Positions 11,594 to 48,047 of a stretch of 60,765 nucleotides of DNA are shown piece by piece. A program made the translations under genes and the position numbers. The notes under the pieces were generated by a model. It did no database searches. It was given only the letters and a program-made list of their open reading frames with translations, and was not told the DNA's origin. The stretch comes from Clostridiales bacterium (GTDB lineage Bacteria; Bacillota; Clostridia; Peptostreptococcales; Anaerovoracaceae), in the NCBI GenBank assembly GCA_015058145.1, contig SVCX01000006.1:1-60765 (forward strand). Direction: 5' to 3'. Within the stretch, counting starts at the first letter, position 1. Every line of letters starts with the position of its first letter.

Positions 11594-13675
11594 TTATTTA
11601 GTCTTCGCCTTCTTCGTACTGCTCCACTTGGAGTAATACGTCGCCGAACCAACAGTCTTATAGGATCTGTACTGCATGTAGTATTTCGTCTTTCGCTTCA
11701 GTTTCTTAACCGTCACTTTTGTCTTTGATATGCCCTTGACTTTGATGTACTTAGCGTTCGAGAAGTTTGACTTCGTCGATACGCGAACCTGATACCCTGT
11801 GATGGCAGGTTTATACTTTTTCTTCTGTTTTTTGCTCATGGCATTCCAGCGAACCGTCAGCTTCTTTTTGCCTCGTTTTGGGGCTTTGATCTTCTTGACG
11901 AGCGGAGGAACGATATTAAAGGAAAGAACTCTCGTACCAGTGTAACCGTTTACTCCTTCCACAGTCACCCGATAGGAGCCGACCTTCTTTCGGCCTGCAG
12001 CATATGATGCCCTGTAATAACCAGCTGACAGAGCTTTATTTGCCTTATAAACAGTAACACGCGGCGTCTTGACTTTGCCATTATAGGTGAAGGTCTTTCC
12101 CGACAAAGACGCTGCATGGGTCGACAAGTCAGTTGCCATATAACGGTATGCCGCGCCAAGATTGATCAGCCCATACCCATAATACGGATCATACCCCTTC
12201 GCTCCTTTGTCAACAGATGTTGCTTTGATTACCCGCGTGAAATCAGAATGTCTTGTCGACGGCGCCATCTGCTTGACCAAAGCCGCCATAGCTGAAACCT
12301 GCGGAGTGGAGAAAGATGTTCCGCTATCTAAACAGTACCTTCCGGTGTTTGACGCAAGCAGCAAGTCTTCTCCGTAAGCAGATACTGTAACGTATTTGTT
12401 GTAAGTCGAAAAGTATGAACGCTCCCCAGTACTATCAACGGACGCAACACTGACGACGCAATCATATGCTGCCGGATACATTACCGGATTGCCATACTCT
12501 GCATCATTACCTGCCGCCGCAACAAGAATGATTCCAGCGTTAACGGCCTCTCTGCATTTCGTTTCCAATGTAACCGAAAAGTCACCGTCAAATGACCCTC
12601 CAAAACTCATGTTAATCACGCCAACTTTTTTGTTGCTTTTTTTATTATAATTAATCACATGATTCAGCCCAGCGATAATCACGCTGATCGTTGAAGCGCC
12701 GCTGTCATTCAACGCCTTTACCGGCATTATGGTCGTGTTCGGCATGACTCCATTAAGTCCCTCATTATTGTTGTAAGAAGCTGCAATGACGCCCGTTACT
12801 TTCGTGCCGTGTCCGAATCCGTCGACTACATTGCTCGAACCGTTAAATGCATTGTAAGGAGCTGTATAGGCAACCCTTCTTAAGTCCGGATGACTGATCG
12901 TAACGCCCGAGTCAAGCACAGCAATAATTGTATTATTTCCAAACATTCCTCTGTTCCAGACATATGGGGCATTAATCAATCTCAGATACCAATCATGCTC
13001 TTCGTAGACAGGATCATCGATTTCTACTTCTGTCGCATGCACGATATAGTCCGGTTCGATGTATTCAATCATCGCAGGCTCTGCGACTTCCGCAATAGTC
13101 TCAATGGAATCGGCCGTGTAAAGTTCTTCATTGATGACTTCCTCTACCTTCTGCCCTTCACTCTCATCCAGATCATCGATGGCGCTTTCCATCTCTTTGA
13201 CCTCTTTTTTCGTGACATCGTCTTCAAGCTTATATATGAATCCGTCATATTCTTTCTCGTCTACGCTATCCAGATTCACCGTGAGCGCATCGTTTAGTTC
13301 GCCCACAGCAGCCTCTGTTGATGCCACTTCTGATTCAGCAACCGGTTCTTCATCTTCTGTTCCCGGCGTCTCTTCGGCGACGGTGTCCGCATCAGTTTCC
13401 GGCGCAACACCCTCCTCTTCTGCGGCAGCTGCTTCCGCTTCAGGCGCAACCGTTTCATCCATTGTTTCAATCGCATTAGTCACAACTGAGTCGTCAGTTG
13501 TATCAGTTTCCACTGCATAGATTCCCGTCGGCATATATATCATCCCAAACACAAAAACGACTGCCGTCAGTATAGCTGTCAGTCGTTTCGCAATGTGATA
13601 ATGTTTCTTTTCGACGAGTCTTCTCATTATAGTCTTTCTAAATCCCGATTCTTTCTCATTATTATCCATTCTCAT
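11594..13675 (-). CDS. secreted subtilisin-like (S8) serine protease with C-terminal fibronectin III domain
   Basis: A 693-residue exported protease. An N-terminal hydrophobic segment (about 32-55) is followed by an acidic Ala/Glu-rich stretch (about 60-125), an inhibitor-I9-like propeptide (about 130-215) and the S8 catalytic domain. The triad is D255 (VLDSG), H289 (GHGT) and S454 (GTSFSTP), with oxyanion N390. After it come an immunoglobulin-like module (about 525-600) and a lysine-rich fibronectin type III domain (about 605-693). No clear Shine-Dalgarno is seen; an ATG 6 bp downstream is equally possible. The lysine-rich C-terminus may bind wall polymers. It is predicted to feed the peptide-uptake genes of this region. 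Confidence 0.9.
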   Translation of the reverse strand: MRMDNNEKESGFRKTIMRRLVEKKHYHIAKRLTAILTAVVFVFGMIYMPTGIYAVETDTTDDSVVTNAIETMDETVAPEAEAAAAEEEGVAPETDADTVAEETPGTEDEEPVAESEVASTEAAVGELNDALTVNLDSVDEKEYDGFIYKLEDDVTKKEVKEMESAIDDLDESEGQKVEEVINEELYTADSIETIAEVAEPAMIEYIEPDYIVHATEVEIDDPVYEEHDWYLRLINAPYVWNRGMFGNNTIIAVLDSGVTISHPDLRRVAYTAPYNAFNGSSNVVDGFGHGTKVTGVIAASYNNNEGLNGVMPNTTIMPVKALNDSGASTISVIIAGLNHVINYNKKSNKKVGVINMSFGGSFDGDFSVTLETKCREAVNAGIILVAAAGNDAEYGNPVMYPAAYDCVVSVASVDSTGERSYFSTYNKYVTVSAYGEDLLLASNTGRYCLDSGTSFSTPQVSAMAALVKQMAPSTRHSDFTRVIKATSVDKGAKGYDPYYGYGLINLGAAYRYMATDLSTHAASLSGKTFTYNGKVKTPRVTVYKANKALSAGYYRASYAAGRKKVGSYRVTVEGVNGYTGTRVLSFNIVPPLVKKIKAPKRGKKKLTVRWNAMSKKQKKKYKPAITGYQVRVSTKSNFSNAKYIKVKGISKTKVTVKKLKRKTKYYMQYRSYKTVGSATYYSKWSSTKKAKTK

Positions 13676-40628: not shown

Positions 40629-42539
<1,911 letters not shown>

Positions 42540-42585
42540 TTTGCTTCCCTTTATATGCTCTTCTGTAAATGTAAAGTGATATTTG

Positions 42586-42594
42586 ATTATATCA
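42586..42594 (-). promoter_or_regulatory. extended -10 promoter of DUF2207 copy A
   Basis: TGaTATAAT (TATAAT 42586-42591) between the two DUF2207 genes; no clear -35. Confidence 0.5.
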
Positions 42595-42611
42595 CAAAAC
42601 AGCCTCTATCT

Positions 42612-44483
42612 CTACCAGGAGCCGCCGCCCCCGCCGCCGCCGCCTCCGCCGCCGGAGAAGGAACCGCCGCCCCCGCCATCCGATGGCGAAGAGTTCATGC
42701 TGGTCGTTATGCTGCTCATCATAGAGCCCATGGAATTCAGGAACGACGTGGACGTCACAGGGTTTCCGCCTGTGCTGGCGAAACCGGAATCATACCACTC
42801 CGGAGGCTGCGTAGCCAGCGACGCGAAACGCTTTGCATATACATCTGTGACGCCTAACGCAAAGGCATAGGCCAGATTCTTGTAGAAGTACTGCGGATCC
42901 TTTTCGGCCAGCATTTCCATCTTGTCCTTTTCCGCAATTTTGAGGAAGTTCCTATATCCTCTGATCTTGCCGAGGACAGAAGCGTACCAGTCGGTCTTCC
43001 TCTCGCAGAGAGCAGACAGCAGGAACAGGACAAAGCACATGCCCAAACCGACCAGGAACGGAATGAACCGCACCCCCGGCGCAATTTCGCAGACGATGCA
43101 GGCCGCCAGACCGACGGCGATGCAGATGGCGTATCCAATAATACCCCAGTAATGTTCCCGCTCATTGATCTTCTTCGCGATGCCGCCAAACCCCACAGCG
43201 AAAGCAACGACAGCGAGGATAATAATATAGATTGGTCCGAAGATGATGGATGGACCGATGAATCCCAATCCATTCCCGCCGAGGAACGTAGCGAGTATCA
43301 TCAGGATGATTCCGGCGATACCGCCGCCCTTCAGGATGCGCGCATATGTTGCTGCCTTTGGATCGTAGAGCTTGTCTCTATAGTAATTCTTGATGTCTTT
43401 TTCAATGGCGTTGACTGTCTTGTAGAATTTATTCTTGAGATCTTCTATGTCGACGGTATCTCCTGTCTCAAAGAGGCCGTCCATAAACGCGCGCTCGCCG
43501 ATCACGTCATCGTCGTACTCGCGCAGCTTGATTATTTCATAGGTTGTTTTCGTCTTATTCTTTCGGAATCCGGCCGGGACTTCACGTTCCGCTATCTTAA
43601 GATACCCTCTGTCGGCCAGACTCAAGAGCGCGCTGACAACATGACTTCCCTGTACCTCGCCCTTCGCGAGAAAGCCGACTTCCGGCGCGCTCAATTTCTC
43701 AGGAGGATAGAACTCCTCCGTCTCAACAAACTGCGGATCCCTGCCGTATTTTCTCCAAAGCAGGAAGCCGACGGCTGCCAGCAGAATCATCAGTCCCGTC
43801 AGAACGAGCAACGGAATGACCGAAGTCCCTTCCTGCCGAGTATAGTAACCTTCCGGAAGAACCGCTCTGACAGTCAGTCCGCCGAGGACGTATTCCGAAG
43901 TCTCGCCTTTGATCTCCTGGTCCGAAACAACTTCAAAATCGACCATCTTATTGTCACCGGTCTTGATGCCGACCTTGCTCATATCGATGGCCTTCGGGAA
44001 CTGCACGTCGAAGGAAACGTGTTTGATGGACTGCGCTTCCCAGCTCGTTCCGATCAGATTGTAGAAGAACTCGTCGCCGCCCTTGAAATGATCGCCCTGT
44101 GGATCGTAAGTGTAGGACATTTTGTAGACCGTATCCTTGTCGGCGTACACGTCCTCATCGCCGATGCGGGCGTTGAATTCATCATATTCGCTCTCGTCCT
44201 CCCACTTCTGCCCGCTGAGCATCTCGAAGCCGCGTACCTTCGCAAAGTAAGTGGATCGCTGTCCGTCCCTATCCAATGAAGTCCGCAGCGGAATCGTCCT
44301 GTAGATACCGTGGCTCCGCCAGGTGAAATGGACCTTGATCGTCTCCGTGATGTCGTAGGTGTCGTCTTCATTTACAACGACCTGTATATCGTAGTCATCA
44401 ATCCAAAAATTGCTGGCTGCGCTCGCTGTCTGCGGCAGCAGGCACAGCACAAAAATAAAAACCGCTATCACCAGTTTCTTCAT
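42612..44483 (-). CDS. DUF2207 membrane protein with poly-glycine tail (copy B)
   Basis: A 623-residue paralog of copy A with the same plan: signal peptide (1-22), extracellular DUF2207 domain starting FWIDDYDIQVVVNEDDTYDI, a membrane helix near 230-250, a cytosolic part, paired helices near 395-480, and a C-terminal run of 11 glycines ending GGSW. GGGAGG precedes the ATG. The copies differ across most positions, so the duplication is old. Gly-Ser tails ending in an aromatic residue are shared, suggesting a conserved role for the tail. Confidence 0.85.
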   Translation of the reverse strand: MKKLVIAVFIFVLCLLPQTASAASNFWIDDYDIQVVVNEDDTYDITETIKVHFTWRSHGIYRTIPLRTSLDRDGQRSTYFAKVRGFEMLSGQKWEDESEYDEFNARIGDEDVYADKDTVYKMSYTYDPQGDHFKGGDEFFYNLIGTSWEAQSIKHVSFDVQFPKAIDMSKVGIKTGDNKMVDFEVVSDQEIKGETSEYVLGGLTVRAVLPEGYYTRQEGTSVIPLLVLTGLMILLAAVGFLLWRKYGRDPQFVETEEFYPPEKLSAPEVGFLAKGEVQGSHVVSALLSLADRGYLKIAEREVPAGFRKNKTKTTYEIIKLREYDDDVIGERAFMDGLFETGDTVDIEDLKNKFYKTVNAIEKDIKNYYRDKLYDPKAATYARILKGGGIAGIILMILATFLGGNGLGFIGPSIIFGPIYIIILAVVAFAVGFGGIAKKINEREHYWGIIGYAICIAVGLAACIVCEIAPGVRFIPFLVGLGMCFVLFLLSALCERKTDWYASVLGKIRGYRNFLKIAEKDKMEMLAEKDPQYFYKNLAYAFALGVTDVYAKRFASLATQPPEWYDSGFASTGGNPVTSTSFLNSMGSMMSSITTSMNSSPSDGGGGGSFSGGGGGGGGGGGSW

Positions 44484-44540: not shown

Positions 44541-45323
44541 TTATGCAGAAATGACCGGTCCATTCACCTCCGTCAGATGCTTCCAGTACCGGACCGGCAT
44601 ATGATTCTTCTGGCAGCGCGGATTGGTACGCTCCTTGATGGCGATGTGGTCAAAATAGGTACGCCAAAGACTCTGGTAGGAGATCTCATTCTCCGACATC
44701 ATCATGGCGGTTCCGTCCGGCAGATGAGTGCCGTCGAAGTCTGTCACGTACCAATCGTGTTCATAGGCGACGATGGCCTTCGAACGGCCGATATCGTGGA
44801 TGATGAGCGGATCGTGGCTGAACCGCTCGGCGAAGTGATGTGCGACGAGGGCGATCACATCATGCTCGGGTTCGATCTTCGCGTAGAGAATCTGCGGACC
44901 GCCGCCGGCTGCTTCCATCACTTCGAAGCGCACAAACTGGAGCATGCGCTCCCGCTCGTTGCCTACCTTCCGCACGATGTCCTCAAGGGCCTGCACCTCC
45001 GGATGCGTATGCAGGGAACCGACCTGCGGTCCAACGCGGAATCCAAACAACACATAGTTGAGAATCACATTTTCCTTGCCGGTGATGCCGGAAAGAAAAG
45101 CGCGGTAGATGAGTCGCAACGAGTAACCAGAGATCTTGTTTCCAATTGCGTTGTAGACCCGATCCGCTTTCTCTTCATCCGTCTCCACTTCCATGGATCC
45201 GTGCAGGAGACTCGGCTGATACTCCCCGCGGGGATAGATTCCCGCCGCCTTGTCCGTGTAATAGTGGTGGTAGATGCAGGTCAATAATCCTTCAAATGTT
45301 CCGTCGTATAGATAATCTCTCAT
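44541..45323 (-). CDS. putative DNA repair protein, TIGR03915/DUF4130 type
   Basis: A 260-residue protein matching the family always found with the radical SAM protein encoded just upstream (3 bp away). The N-terminal YDGTFEGLLTCIYHHY and the C-terminal NPRCQKNHMPVRYWKHL are the conserved blocks. In many other bacteria this domain is fused to a uracil-DNA-glycosylase-like domain; here the fusion partner is missing. Histidines in VAHHFAERF and DIGRSKAIVAYE are likely functional. No biochemical role is established for the family. Co-transcription with the radical SAM gene from a LexA-box promoter supports a repair role. Confidence 0.85.
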   Translation of the reverse strand: MRDYLYDGTFEGLLTCIYHHYYTDKAAGIYPRGEYQPSLLHGSMEVETDEEKADRVYNAIGNKISGYSLRLIYRAFLSGITGKENVILNYVLFGFRVGPQVGSLHTHPEVQALEDIVRKVGNERERMLQFVRFEVMEAAGGGPQILYAKIEPEHDVIALVAHHFAERFSHDPLIIHDIGRSKAIVAYEHDWYVTDFDGTHLPDGTAMMMSENEISYQSLWRTYFDHIAIKERTNPRCQKNHMPVRYWKHLTEVNGPVISA

Positions 45324-45326
45324 TTT

Positions 45327-46745
45327 TTATATCACGCCCGCCGCCGCAAGTTTTTCCTGCCGGGCGCCTTCCTCGAGACGTTTCCAGTCATTGTCGAACA
45401 TGGACATCTGCAGTCCGCTCTCCATCTGAAGCAAGGAGTTCCGAATGGTTTCCTGTTCAAAGCTCCTGTCACCGAAATACCGACCGCAGCAGAGCACGAA
45501 GTACTTGGCCCGCTTTATGACGACGCCCATCTTCTTCAGATCATCAAAGTGTACAGCCGCGAACCGGCGCTGCCGCAGGATGCGCATTGCGGATATGTGT
45601 CCAATACCCGGAATCCGCATAAGCTGTTCGTAGGATGCTGTATTGACTTCCATTGGAAACTCATCCAGATTGCGCAGCGCCCAGGTCACCTTCGGGTCCA
45701 GATCCGGATCCAGATTCTCTCCGCCGCTTCGGAACAGTTCGCTCACTGTAAACCCATAGAAACGCAGCAGCCAGTCTGCCTGGTAGATTCGGTGCTCCCG
45801 CTTCAGCGGCGGCGCCGTAGTCTTGTCCGGCAGAATCGGCGAATCAACCACTGGAATATAGGCAGAATAATAGACTCGCTTCATCTTAAAGGTCCGATAG
45901 AGGTTCTCGCTGGTTGCCAGAATGCTTGCGTCGGTCTCGCCGCCGGCTCCGATGATCATCTGAGTGGTCTGCCCCGCCGAGGCGAAGGAGTTTTTCCCGC
46001 GTCCGCCCTTCGCCAAGGACAATGCGGATACTATGGAATCGTCCCCGCCAGAACCCGCATCCAGTCCCATCGGTCCCAAATAGTTTCCGGCGTCATTCAG
46101 ATTCTGTCCCTTGAACATAGTGCCCGGGCCTTTCAGCGACTTGGTCTCAATCAGGGTGTTGGTAATCTGCCGCATAGGCGCGACGATCTGCTCGATCTTC
46201 TTCTGCGGCGCGAAGGCAGCCAGACTCTCCCGGGACGGCATTTCGATATTGACGCTGAGCCGGTCCGCCACCAGACCGATCCGATGGAGGATCTCCGGTG
46301 ACACCCCCGGAATGATCTTGGCGTGAATGTATCCGGCAAAACCGTACTTGTATCGCAAAAGCTCCAGACACTGCAGAATCCTCTCCGCCGTGTGGTCAGG
46401 CGACACCTCAACCGCGGAGCTTAGGAACAGCCCCTCGATGTAATTGCGCCGATAGAACTCCACCGTCAGGCGCGCTAATTCATCCGGCTCAAAGGACGCC
46501 CTTGGGAAATCGTTGGCCCTCCTGTTCACGCAGTACTCGCAGTTGTAGACGCACTTATTGGTGAACAGAACTTTGAGCAACGAAATGCAGCGCCCATCGG
46601 CACCCCAGGAGTGGCAGATGCCGGCCATGTGGCCGTTGCCCATCCTTCCGTTGGCCGCGCGGCTGGATCCGCTGCTGGAGCAGGATACGTCATACTTGGC
46701 ACTGTCAGCCAAGATTTGAAGCTTTTGCATTAAGATCTCTTCCAT
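45327..46745 (-). CDS. putative DNA modification/repair radical SAM protein, TIGR03916 type
   Basis: A 472-residue radical SAM enzyme with cluster motif CVYNCEYC (C65, C69, C72). An N-terminal stretch KYDVSCSSSG plus further cysteines (HMAGICHSW, GRC) is family-specific. A C-terminal helix-hairpin-helix DNA-binding motif (LMRIPGIGHISAMRIL) is followed by a Cys-Cys (FVLCCGRY). The architecture implies a radical reaction on DNA, comparable in logic to spore photoproduct lyase, but the substrate is unknown. The ATG at 46745 sits exactly 6 bp after the -10 box (leaderless); an ATG at 46730 with a weak GGAAGAG is the alternative. Confidence 0.88.
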   Translation of the reverse strand: MEEILMQKLQILADSAKYDVSCSSSGSSRAANGRMGNGHMAGICHSWGADGRCISLLKVLFTNKCVYNCEYCVNRRANDFPRASFEPDELARLTVEFYRRNYIEGLFLSSAVEVSPDHTAERILQCLELLRYKYGFAGYIHAKIIPGVSPEILHRIGLVADRLSVNIEMPSRESLAAFAPQKKIEQIVAPMRQITNTLIETKSLKGPGTMFKGQNLNDAGNYLGPMGLDAGSGGDDSIVSALSLAKGGRGKNSFASAGQTTQMIIGAGGETDASILATSENLYRTFKMKRVYYSAYIPVVDSPILPDKTTAPPLKREHRIYQADWLLRFYGFTVSELFRSGGENLDPDLDPKVTWALRNLDEFPMEVNTASYEQLMRIPGIGHISAMRILRQRRFAAVHFDDLKKMGVVIKRAKYFVLCCGRYFGDRSFEQETIRNSLLQMESGLQMSMFDNDWKRLEEGARQEKLAAAGVI

Positions 46746-46751
46746 GGCTAT

Positions 46752-46780
46752 ATTATACCGCTTGCAGAACATCTGTTCAA
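46752..46780 (-). promoter_or_regulatory. promoter of the radical SAM repair operon
   Basis: -35 TTGAAC (46775-46780), 17-bp spacer, -10 TATAAT (46752-46757). Confidence 0.7.
46767..46778 (-). promoter_or_regulatory. LexA (SOS) box in the repair-operon promoter
   Basis: GAACAGATGTTC on the minus strand fits the Gram-positive LexA core GAAC-RNRY-GTTY exactly. It overlaps the -35 and the spacer, where a repressor would block RNA polymerase. Confidence 0.7.
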
Positions 46781-46792
46781 GAACATATATTC
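46781..46792 (-). promoter_or_regulatory. degenerate second LexA-like box
   Basis: GAATATATGTTC on the minus strand, one base off the GAAC-N4-GTTC core, 2 bp upstream of the first box. Confidence 0.4.
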
Positions 46793-46805
46793 TTAATAGT
46801 TGTTA

Positions 46806-46834
46806 TTGAGCGGATCTTTACAGCCCTATATAAT
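46806..46834 (+). promoter_or_regulatory. promoter of the M28 peptidase gene
   Basis: -35 TTGAGC (46806-46811), 17-bp spacer, -10 TATAAT (46829-46834); divergent from the repair operon. Confidence 0.65.
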
Positions 46835-46868
46835 GGAGGCAGACAGACAGCAAAGGACGGGCAAGACA

Positions 46869-48047
46869 ATGAAGCAAAAAAAGATATTTACCCTGCTGAT
46901 ACTCGTTTTAATACTGGCCTTCCTGGCCGGGTGCGGCAATCGAAACGCCTTAGATGACAGTGAAGAACTAGCTTCGAATCAGGCGTCGGCGATGATTGGA
47001 AACCTGAAGACACCTGTCACTTCCGCAAACATCACTGACTACGACTTCACGGATCAGGCGACCGCCTATCTCGAGCACATCGGCACCAGCGGAGAGTCCA
47101 GCGAGGCTTTGCGCGAGTGGATCATCGGTGAACTGAAGAGCGCCGGCTACCGTGACGAGCAAATCACCGTAGAACACTTCAATACGGATTGGGCTGCCGT
47201 CGAAGGAGACAATATCATCCTCACCGTGGAAGGCGATGACCCTTCCAAACAAATCATCGCGGGAGCCCACTATGATGGAGACGGTGTTGGAGACAACGGC
47301 TCCGGAACAGCGCTGCTCCTGGCGAACGCCGTCGGTCTGCAGAGTGTCAAACCACACTACACGGTCAAGTACATCTTTTTTGATGCAGAAGAGGAAGGAT
47401 GCTTTGGCAGCCAGTACAATGCTGACCAGATGACCGAAGAAGAAATCAACTGCACGATATACATGATCAATCTAGACGCACTGGCTTTCGGAGATTACTG
47501 CAACATCTATGGCGGCGCCTTCGGTGAAGACGGCATGGCAATCGCCGTCGACCAGCTTGAGTCGCCGGAGGCGACAGAAGGTTATACTTTCGCGGCGGAC
47601 ACAGCGGAGCAACTAGGTTTCAAGGTGATGCGCACTGCGGATCTCGACGGGTATTATGCGAAGCACGGCACCGGCCCTGCTATTGAAGAAGACACGCTGT
47701 ACACCAATCCATGGACGCCGGAGAATCCCGCGCCCGCAAACAATTCAGCGATGTCACCTGCTACAATCCCCGCCAGCGACCATGTGGAATATATGGATCT
47801 GGGCATTGAGTACATATATTTTGAAGCTACTAACTGGTTCGCCGAGAGCGGCAATGATGAAGTAGAGGGAACTTCCTTCACCGGATATATCGAGACATAC
47901 GATTATGCCCTCGGTGAACACGGCATGTTCATGAACACAGAATATGACACCTGGGAGAATCTCAACGAATACTTCCCTGGCAGAGCGCAAAAGCATTATG
48001 AGCTTTACTCGCCGCTCTTATCCGCCTTGCTTCTCGTTCACGAATAG
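46869..48047 (+). CDS. M28 family zinc aminopeptidase lipoprotein
   Basis: A 392-residue exported metallopeptidase. The signal sequence ends in LAGC, so it is a predicted lipoprotein. The co-catalytic zinc site is visible in GAHYDG (His, Asp), GVGDNGSGTA (bridging Asp), DAEEEGCFGS (Glu-Glu) and NLDAL (Asp). A late His in PASDHVEY completes the set. It should remove N-terminal residues from extracellular peptides. The start at 46869 follows AAAGGA and begins the signal peptide; the 23-codon longer frame overlaps the promoter. Confidence 0.9.
   Translation: MKQKKIFTLLILVLILAFLAGCGNRNALDDSEELASNQASAMIGNLKTPVTSANITDYDFTDQATAYLEHIGTSGESSEALREWIIGELKSAGYRDEQITVEHFNTDWAAVEGDNIILTVEGDDPSKQIIAGAHYDGDGVGDNGSGTALLLANAVGLQSVKPHYTVKYIFFDAEEEGCFGSQYNADQMTEEEINCTIYMINLDALAFGDYCNIYGGAFGEDGMAIAVDQLESPEATEGYTFAADTAEQLGFKVMRTADLDGYYAKHGTGPAIEEDTLYTNPWTPENPAPANNSAMSPATIPASDHVEYMDLGIEYIYFEATNWFAESGNDEVEGTSFTGYIETYDYALGEHGMFMNTEYDTWENLNEYFPGRAQKHYELYSPLLSALLLVHE

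Follow-up and report, generated by a model that had tools for sequence, protein, structure and literature searches.

Conserved LexA-type boxes and predicted protein anatomy of a radical SAM-DUF4130 gene pair from a Clostridiales bacterium

The 60,765-nucleotide contig SVCX01000006.1 of a Clostridiales bacterium (analyzed over its whole length and called the window here) carries two adjacent genes, for a radical SAM protein and a DUF4130 partner, behind a promoter with LexA-type boxes. Open reading frame (ORF) calls and translations confirmed the pair as two minus-strand ORFs with 3 bp between them. The partner is of the form that has no uracil-DNA glycosylase (UDG) domain. The genes and promoter elements are:

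44541..45323, minus strand: partner protein, TIGR03915 / DUF4130, without UDG domain, 260 aa
45327..46745, minus strand: radical SAM protein, TIGR03916 (COG4277 type), 472 aa from ATG 46745 or 467 aa from ATG 46730
46752..46780, minus strand: sigma-70-type promoter TTGAAC-17-TATAAT, by consensus match only
46767..46778, minus strand: LexA box GAACAGATGTTC, exact GAAC-N4-GTTC, overlapping the -35, its 12-mer identical to one of two recA boxes
46781..46792, minus strand: GAATATATGTTC, the second LexA-type box, with one mismatch, in register 14 bp upstream of GAACAGATGTTC

The radical SAM ORF scores 582.1 bits against NCBIfam TIGR03916 (curated cut-off 343.5) and the partner 241.1 bits against TIGR03915 (curated cut-off 112.25). 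Pfam agrees, with Radical_SAM at 34 bits (cut-off 29.5) in the first ORF and DUF4130 at 161 bits (cut-off 27) in the second. With both families over their curated cut-offs, the adjacency described in an earlier note on this DNA, made from the sequence alone, is borne out, and the pair is a real, typical member of a known family. The two boxes described there, an exact LexA core overlapping the -35 element (here TTGAAC) and a one-mismatch copy directly upstream, are likewise present. The 351-bp stretch holds 3 promoter-type sites as compared to a shuffle mean of 0.5. GGAAGAG precedes ATG 46730 (residue 6 of the radical SAM ORF), and because the -10 TATAAT ends only 6 nt ahead of ATG 46745, this codon is favored over 46745 as the translation start.

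Taken alone, the box of the window is within chance and not significant, since GAAC-N4-GTTC with at most one mismatch occurs at 33 sites in the window against 26 expected, and in the genome to which the window belongs (a draft of 76 contigs, 1.53 Mb, 80% complete) the exact pattern is found at 17 places and its reversed control at 11. A sample of the order gave a different result. Of 247 genomes sampled from the order, 93 score over the TIGR03916 cut-off; 91 of these loci were examined, and boxes were counted in the 90 that had 200 bp or more of upstream sequence, the window being included in both numbers. We counted the exact pattern and a relaxed box in which one end position is loosened (GTTY or RAAC). 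The relaxed pattern is supported because the LexA protein of C. difficile binds both GAAC-N4-GTTT and GAAC-N4-GTTC operators in surface plasmon resonance, according to the parts of PMC4234289 consulted, in which no mention of a radical SAM protein was found. Exact boxes lie upstream in 46/90 loci (0.39 expected from the remainder of the loci) and relaxed boxes in 79/90 (1.18 expected). Dinucleotide shuffles of the 90 loci gave a mean of 0.2 exact (maximum 2) and 1.2 relaxed boxes (maximum 5), and nine control patterns were found upstream in 0 or 1 of the 90. The conservation of the boxes exceeds chance, unlike the site of the window taken alone, and the scan of TIGR03916 homologues that the earlier note had suggested as a check finds GAAC-N4-GTTC far beyond chance.

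Another 82 loci made up a second set, to which named genomes contributed 80 and viral contigs the other 2. By record title the named genomes are mostly Clostridia, with a single locus each from Paenibacillus, Geotalea and Elusimicrobia, and the set shares 6 proteins with the order set. In this set 36/82 loci have an exact and 54/82 a relaxed box. Within the genus of the window, 6/7 loci (window included) have tandem boxes 14 bp apart, and in these six the -35 TTGAAC is the start of the second box; the seventh has a single relaxed box at -288. Tandem boxes are missing from L110, a locus of the same genus (genome G243). That the boxes are chance matches and the pair lies outside SOS control could draw on the one exact site being among 17 in the genome. 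The conservation in 79/90 order loci, where about 1.2 would be expected, and the tandem architecture across the genus speak against it; we rejected this explanation and regard it as very improbable.

The host has the regulators that such control would need. Its genome, whose closest relatives include a Clostridiales Family XIII bacterium, encodes lexA with a one-mismatch box just upstream, and recA (identified by Pfam) with two exact boxes upstream, one of them the 12-mer of the window. Among the 91 genomes of the order examined for it, full-length lexA is missing from 5/11 without a box and from 7/79 with one (Fisher one-sided p 0.005, not corrected for kinship). All five genomes lacking both belong to one family, f10 (G050, G059, G076, G082 and G033), a possible case of loss of SOS control of the pair. 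The comparative evidence, comprising boxes in 79/90 loci, tandem boxes in the genus and similar boxes at the host recA and lexA genes, strongly supports LexA control of the pair, as the earlier note had read it, and the pair is most likely switched on by the DNA-damage response.

Other sites in this genome were seen beside these. A divergent M28-family peptidase gene (46800-48047, plus strand) shares the intergenic region with the pair. The distance from the second LexA box to the start of its promoter-like site (46806-46834) is 14 nt, and LexA could therefore also touch this site. On contig C23 of the same genome (L046), an exact box GAACAAATGTTC lies just before the gene of a 115-aa LysM-domain protein (13098-13451), perhaps a YneA-like SOS division inhibitor. 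A further exact box, GAACACATGTTC, at 7431-7460 of L046, falls within a mutL-type gene at its 3' end; an IPP-transferase (miaA-type) gene starts 29 bp beyond it.

The earlier note presented the pair as an undescribed SOS system. The SOS link of the family is already known as a prediction, so this claim falls. COG4277 we take to be the same radical SAM family as TIGR03916. For CAC3343-CAC3344 of Clostridium acetobutylicum, LexA control was predicted in 2013 from footprinting and expression (PMC3828012, consulted in part). These genes resemble our pair, by product name alone, in having a TIGR03916 product and a second protein of unknown function. In Bacteroidetes, SOS-motif control of COG1573-COG4277 was predicted in a 2021 report, with citation of Verrucomicrobia and Caulobacter work (PMC8565304, likewise consulted in part). 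That system is like ours in placing COG4277 under LexA-type control and differs from it in being described as a UDG base-excision system with other LexA motifs, whereas the window has a UDG-less partner and GAAC-N4-GTTC. In the literature searched, no paper other than PMC3828012 was found to name CAC3343 and none other than PMC8565304 to name COG4277; TIGR03916 was not found as a term, nor was a paper with UdgX and radical SAM together. As far as the parts consulted go, PMC9380542 lists a radical SAM protein in Streptomyces venezuelae LexA work and PMC7739468 calls one part of the Gram-positive core LexA regulon, the family meant being left unsettled in both cases.

The radical SAM protein has further features, each recorded on the minus strand:

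46587..46682, minus strand: stretch with three cysteines, C22, C44 and C53
46530..46553, minus strand: CVYNCEYC radical SAM cluster motif (C65, C69, C72)
45534..45650, minus strand: helix-hairpin-helix, residues 366-404, presumed DNA binding
45396..45410, minus strand: QMSMF, a beta-clamp-type motif, residues 446-450, in the otherwise variable C-terminal tail

An alignment of 78 radical SAM proteins (A4, 77 of 79 chosen rows plus the window's own) was used to examine conservation. The CVYNCEYC motif named in the earlier note is found in the translation, with its CX3CX2C cysteines invariant in 78/78 proteins. C22, C44 and C53 are equally invariant (78/78), and all six cysteines are also kept in the radical SAM copies of both UdgX-fused systems described below. 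The three N-terminal cysteines may hold a second iron-sulphur cluster. The N-terminal auxiliary-cluster motif of lipoyl synthase is CX4CX5C; the cysteines of the window's protein, spaced CX21CX8C, do not follow it.

The helix-hairpin-helix of the earlier note is present: the stretch finds the ComEA-related structure 2duy by sequence (E 4e-4), and its HHH_3 score of 26.8 bits is just below the cut-off of 27. The C-terminal motif is widely kept, with Q446 in 77/78 and F450 in 69/78 aligned proteins, mostly in QLSLF-like form. A strict clamp pattern matches 117/168 tails (114/164 distinct proteins) against a shuffle mean of 0.7, and occurs in 3/820 other neighbouring ORFs and 1/126 DUF4130 ORFs. 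Exact QL[SD]LF accounts for 47/168 tails, and the QMSMF of the window is a variant. Such a motif in a terminal tail is of the type expected of a sliding-clamp client, the consensus QL[S/D]LF being quoted in the consulted parts of PMC3716654 and PMC9690074. The radical SAM protein is predicted from these patterns to dock on the sliding clamp through its C-terminal motif. This clamp motif was not met in the parts of the literature consulted, and in a search aimed at it none of the papers listed, 15 of 41, mentions radical SAM. We know of no clamp-bound radical SAM enzyme.

In the AlphaFold2 model of the radical SAM protein (pLDDT 85.1, pTM 0.82) the nearest solved folds listed are of the lipoyl synthase, HydE and biotin synthase types, to which the window's protein adds the helix-hairpin-helix and the clamp-type tail. 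An insertion at residues 205-252 (about 45990-46133 of the window, minus strand), predicted to be disordered (pLDDT below 50 at 210-249), is confined to the seven members of the window's family in a 27-sequence alignment. The radical SAM protein of L110 has an in-frame insertion of about 190 residues at the same place, in a 649-aa frame. One alternative is direct reversal in the manner of spore photoproduct lyase (SPL), in which the radical SAM enzyme, helped by DUF4130, would split a pyrimidine photoproduct or a lesion like it and so restore the normal bases. The radical SAM domain with its DNA-binding-type motif and the SOS control would fit it. So would the view of PMC3765255 (consulted in part), where DUF4130 is predicted to be a mutagenesis-related enzyme and is linked to SplB-like radical SAM photolyases and to UDGs. 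SPL is absent from the 22 PDB profile matches up to E 1 and from the 50 fold matches listed in either list, a listing that excludes nothing. We regard SPL-like reversal as unlikely.

Comparison shows the pair to be a two-gene unit. Across 140 neighbourhoods, 5 of which repeat the same record, the genes of the pair form clusters present in 137 and 125, and the next cluster reaches only 19/140 (smaller clusters being unannotated); further operon members were rejected on this count. DUF4130 lies downstream on the same strand in 89/91 loci of the order. Modification of a DNA base or sugar, in an epigenetic or defence role instead of repair, is allowed by the family name, which covers modification as well as repair. 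The LexA-type boxes of most order loci argue against it, as does the lack of a third gene in more than 19/140 neighbourhoods, a count in which a rarer defence link could be hidden among the smaller clusters; we consider this role improbable. TIGR03916 is also found in other phyla, and copies occur on contigs labelled viral or phage (L192, L193 and hits H26-H35). At 40629-44483 of the window (minus strand) lie the genes of two adjacent DUF2207 membrane proteins (Pfam) of 636 and 623 aa with long C-terminal glycine runs.

The partner of some other species is fused to a UDG-like domain, as the earlier note stated. We found this in Paracoccus aminophilus and Azospirillum sp. TSH100, where DUF4130 stands beside the same radical SAM gene with its six cysteines, as in the window, and differs from the window's partner in carrying UdgX C-terminal to DUF4130. 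All 82 of the 82 complete partner ORFs in the order are UDG-less, with 242-289 aa (at most 339 from the farthest start), and UDG-less copies occur outside the order in Parabacteroides, Spirosoma, Geotalea, Elusimicrobia and Paenibacillus. Not one of 299 phylum genomes has a TIGR03914 match that attains the cut-off, and none was found in the window's partner or the rest of its genome (80% complete). Because the UDG-less form is normal in this phylum, what the earlier note inferred from the missing domain (direct reversal or an external glycosylase) has a weak basis, and the loss of UDG was rejected as a pointer to direct reversal. Weaker TIGR03914-like matches occur in 203/299 phylum genomes (best 174.6 against a cut-off of 189.95 bits), counted genome-wide without regard to distance from the pair; we read them as related glycosylases, free family-4-type glycosylases being common in the phylum.

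These data bear on a uracil or abasic pathway, in which the pair would process abasic sites or uracil-derived damage with UdgX fused or with a separate glycosylase. The UdgX-DUF4130 fusions in the two Alphaproteobacteria, one PF03167 glycosylase elsewhere in the window's genome and the sub-cut-off matches count in its favor, while the absence of TIGR03914 over cut-off from 299 phylum genomes, of any TIGR03914 match from the organism's own genome (80% complete), and of any gene beyond the pair in more than 19/140 neighbourhoods, count against it. As a full account of the pair this pathway seems to us rather unlikely, a little less so than SPL-like reversal; uracil or abasic DNA is a fair candidate substrate because the UdgX fusion exists.

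The AlphaFold2 model of the partner is of high confidence (pLDDT 93.8, pTM 0.88). All 50 listed VIA matches are DHH/DHHA1 proteins by title, if replisome entries are counted as Cdc45. The same is true of the top 10 Foldseek matches, although E is below 0.001 for only 3 Foldseek matches. RecJ, NrnA, family II pyrophosphatase and Cdc45 are the DHH/DHHA1 phosphoesterases that the model resembles in these lists. A PDB sequence search with DUF4130 gave weak matches, the best an ArsR-type regulator (E 0.0036) that did not recur with a profile.

We consider it probable that the pair, under LexA control, encodes an enzyme that is tethered to the clamp and uses radical chemistry to alter damaged DNA, with DUF4130 as its partner. 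LexA would sit on the two tandem boxes covering the -35 and repress both genes, and upon damage RecA-driven cleavage of LexA would, by comparison with the relatives, permit transcription of both. The radical SAM protein would hold DNA by its helix-hairpin-helix and dock on the replication sliding clamp by its C-terminal QLSLF-type motif, and a 5'-deoxyadenosyl radical would alter a damaged nucleotide at or behind stalled forks, perhaps assisted by a second iron-sulphur cluster on C22/C44/C53. DUF4130 would be a structural or DNA-presenting partner, possibly on a DHH-like fold without the metal site, and the UdgX fusion of some Alphaproteobacteria would add uracil recognition. The most specific form, a damage-induced, clamp-riding, possibly two-cluster radical SAM enzyme at the fork with DUF4130 as a dead DHH-like nuclease fold that holds DNA, we put forward tentatively.

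Several observations weigh against this reading. Boxes are absent from 11/90 loci of the order set and 28/82 of the second set, full-length lexA is present in 6/11 box-less genomes, and 7/79 boxed genomes show no full-length lexA. GAAC-N4-GTTC is absent from all four plasmid copies inspected (Paracoccus, Azospirillum, Parabacteroides and Spirosoma). Counting in its favor, the Paracoccus and Azospirillum copies each have one GAAC-N7-GAAC upstream (counted with no chance control), which is presumably the alphaproteobacterial LexA box; a single GGA-N5-TCC lies at -211 in the Parabacteroides copy. Of the 168 tails, 51 do not match the strict clamp pattern, about 15 of them reading QLSIF, QLTIF or QISIF, and even a widened pattern misses 31/164 distinct proteins. 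The extra cysteines could instead bind zinc or be structural. For DUF4130, the resemblance to DHH proteins has a TM-score of 0.37 at best, and the DHH motif occurs in 0/73 and HxDxD in 3/73 sequences (alignment A3, 72 of 73 chosen rows plus the window's own). Unlike the DHH/DHHA1 phosphoesterases, DUF4130 has neither the motif nor a profile-profile match to them: probabilities were 0.86% for the RecJ-like set (11 sequences), 0.24% for the small NrnA-like set (3) and 0.05% for the long set (2, assigned to AlaRS only on their length), no better than the 0.68% of the negative control A4. On sequence grounds, the reading of DUF4130 as a DHH enzyme was rejected.

The pair is widespread, occurring in 93/247 genomes of the order as well as in other phyla, and in the order it mostly stands behind LexA-type boxes. 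Its damage control was already predicted, and the value of the finding is the added anatomy: the clamp-type motif, the six invariant cysteines and the DUF4130 fold prediction are additions not met in the parts of the literature consulted, where no reaction of the pair was found either. With this motif and these cysteines, what was an open annotation becomes an anatomy that can be tested.

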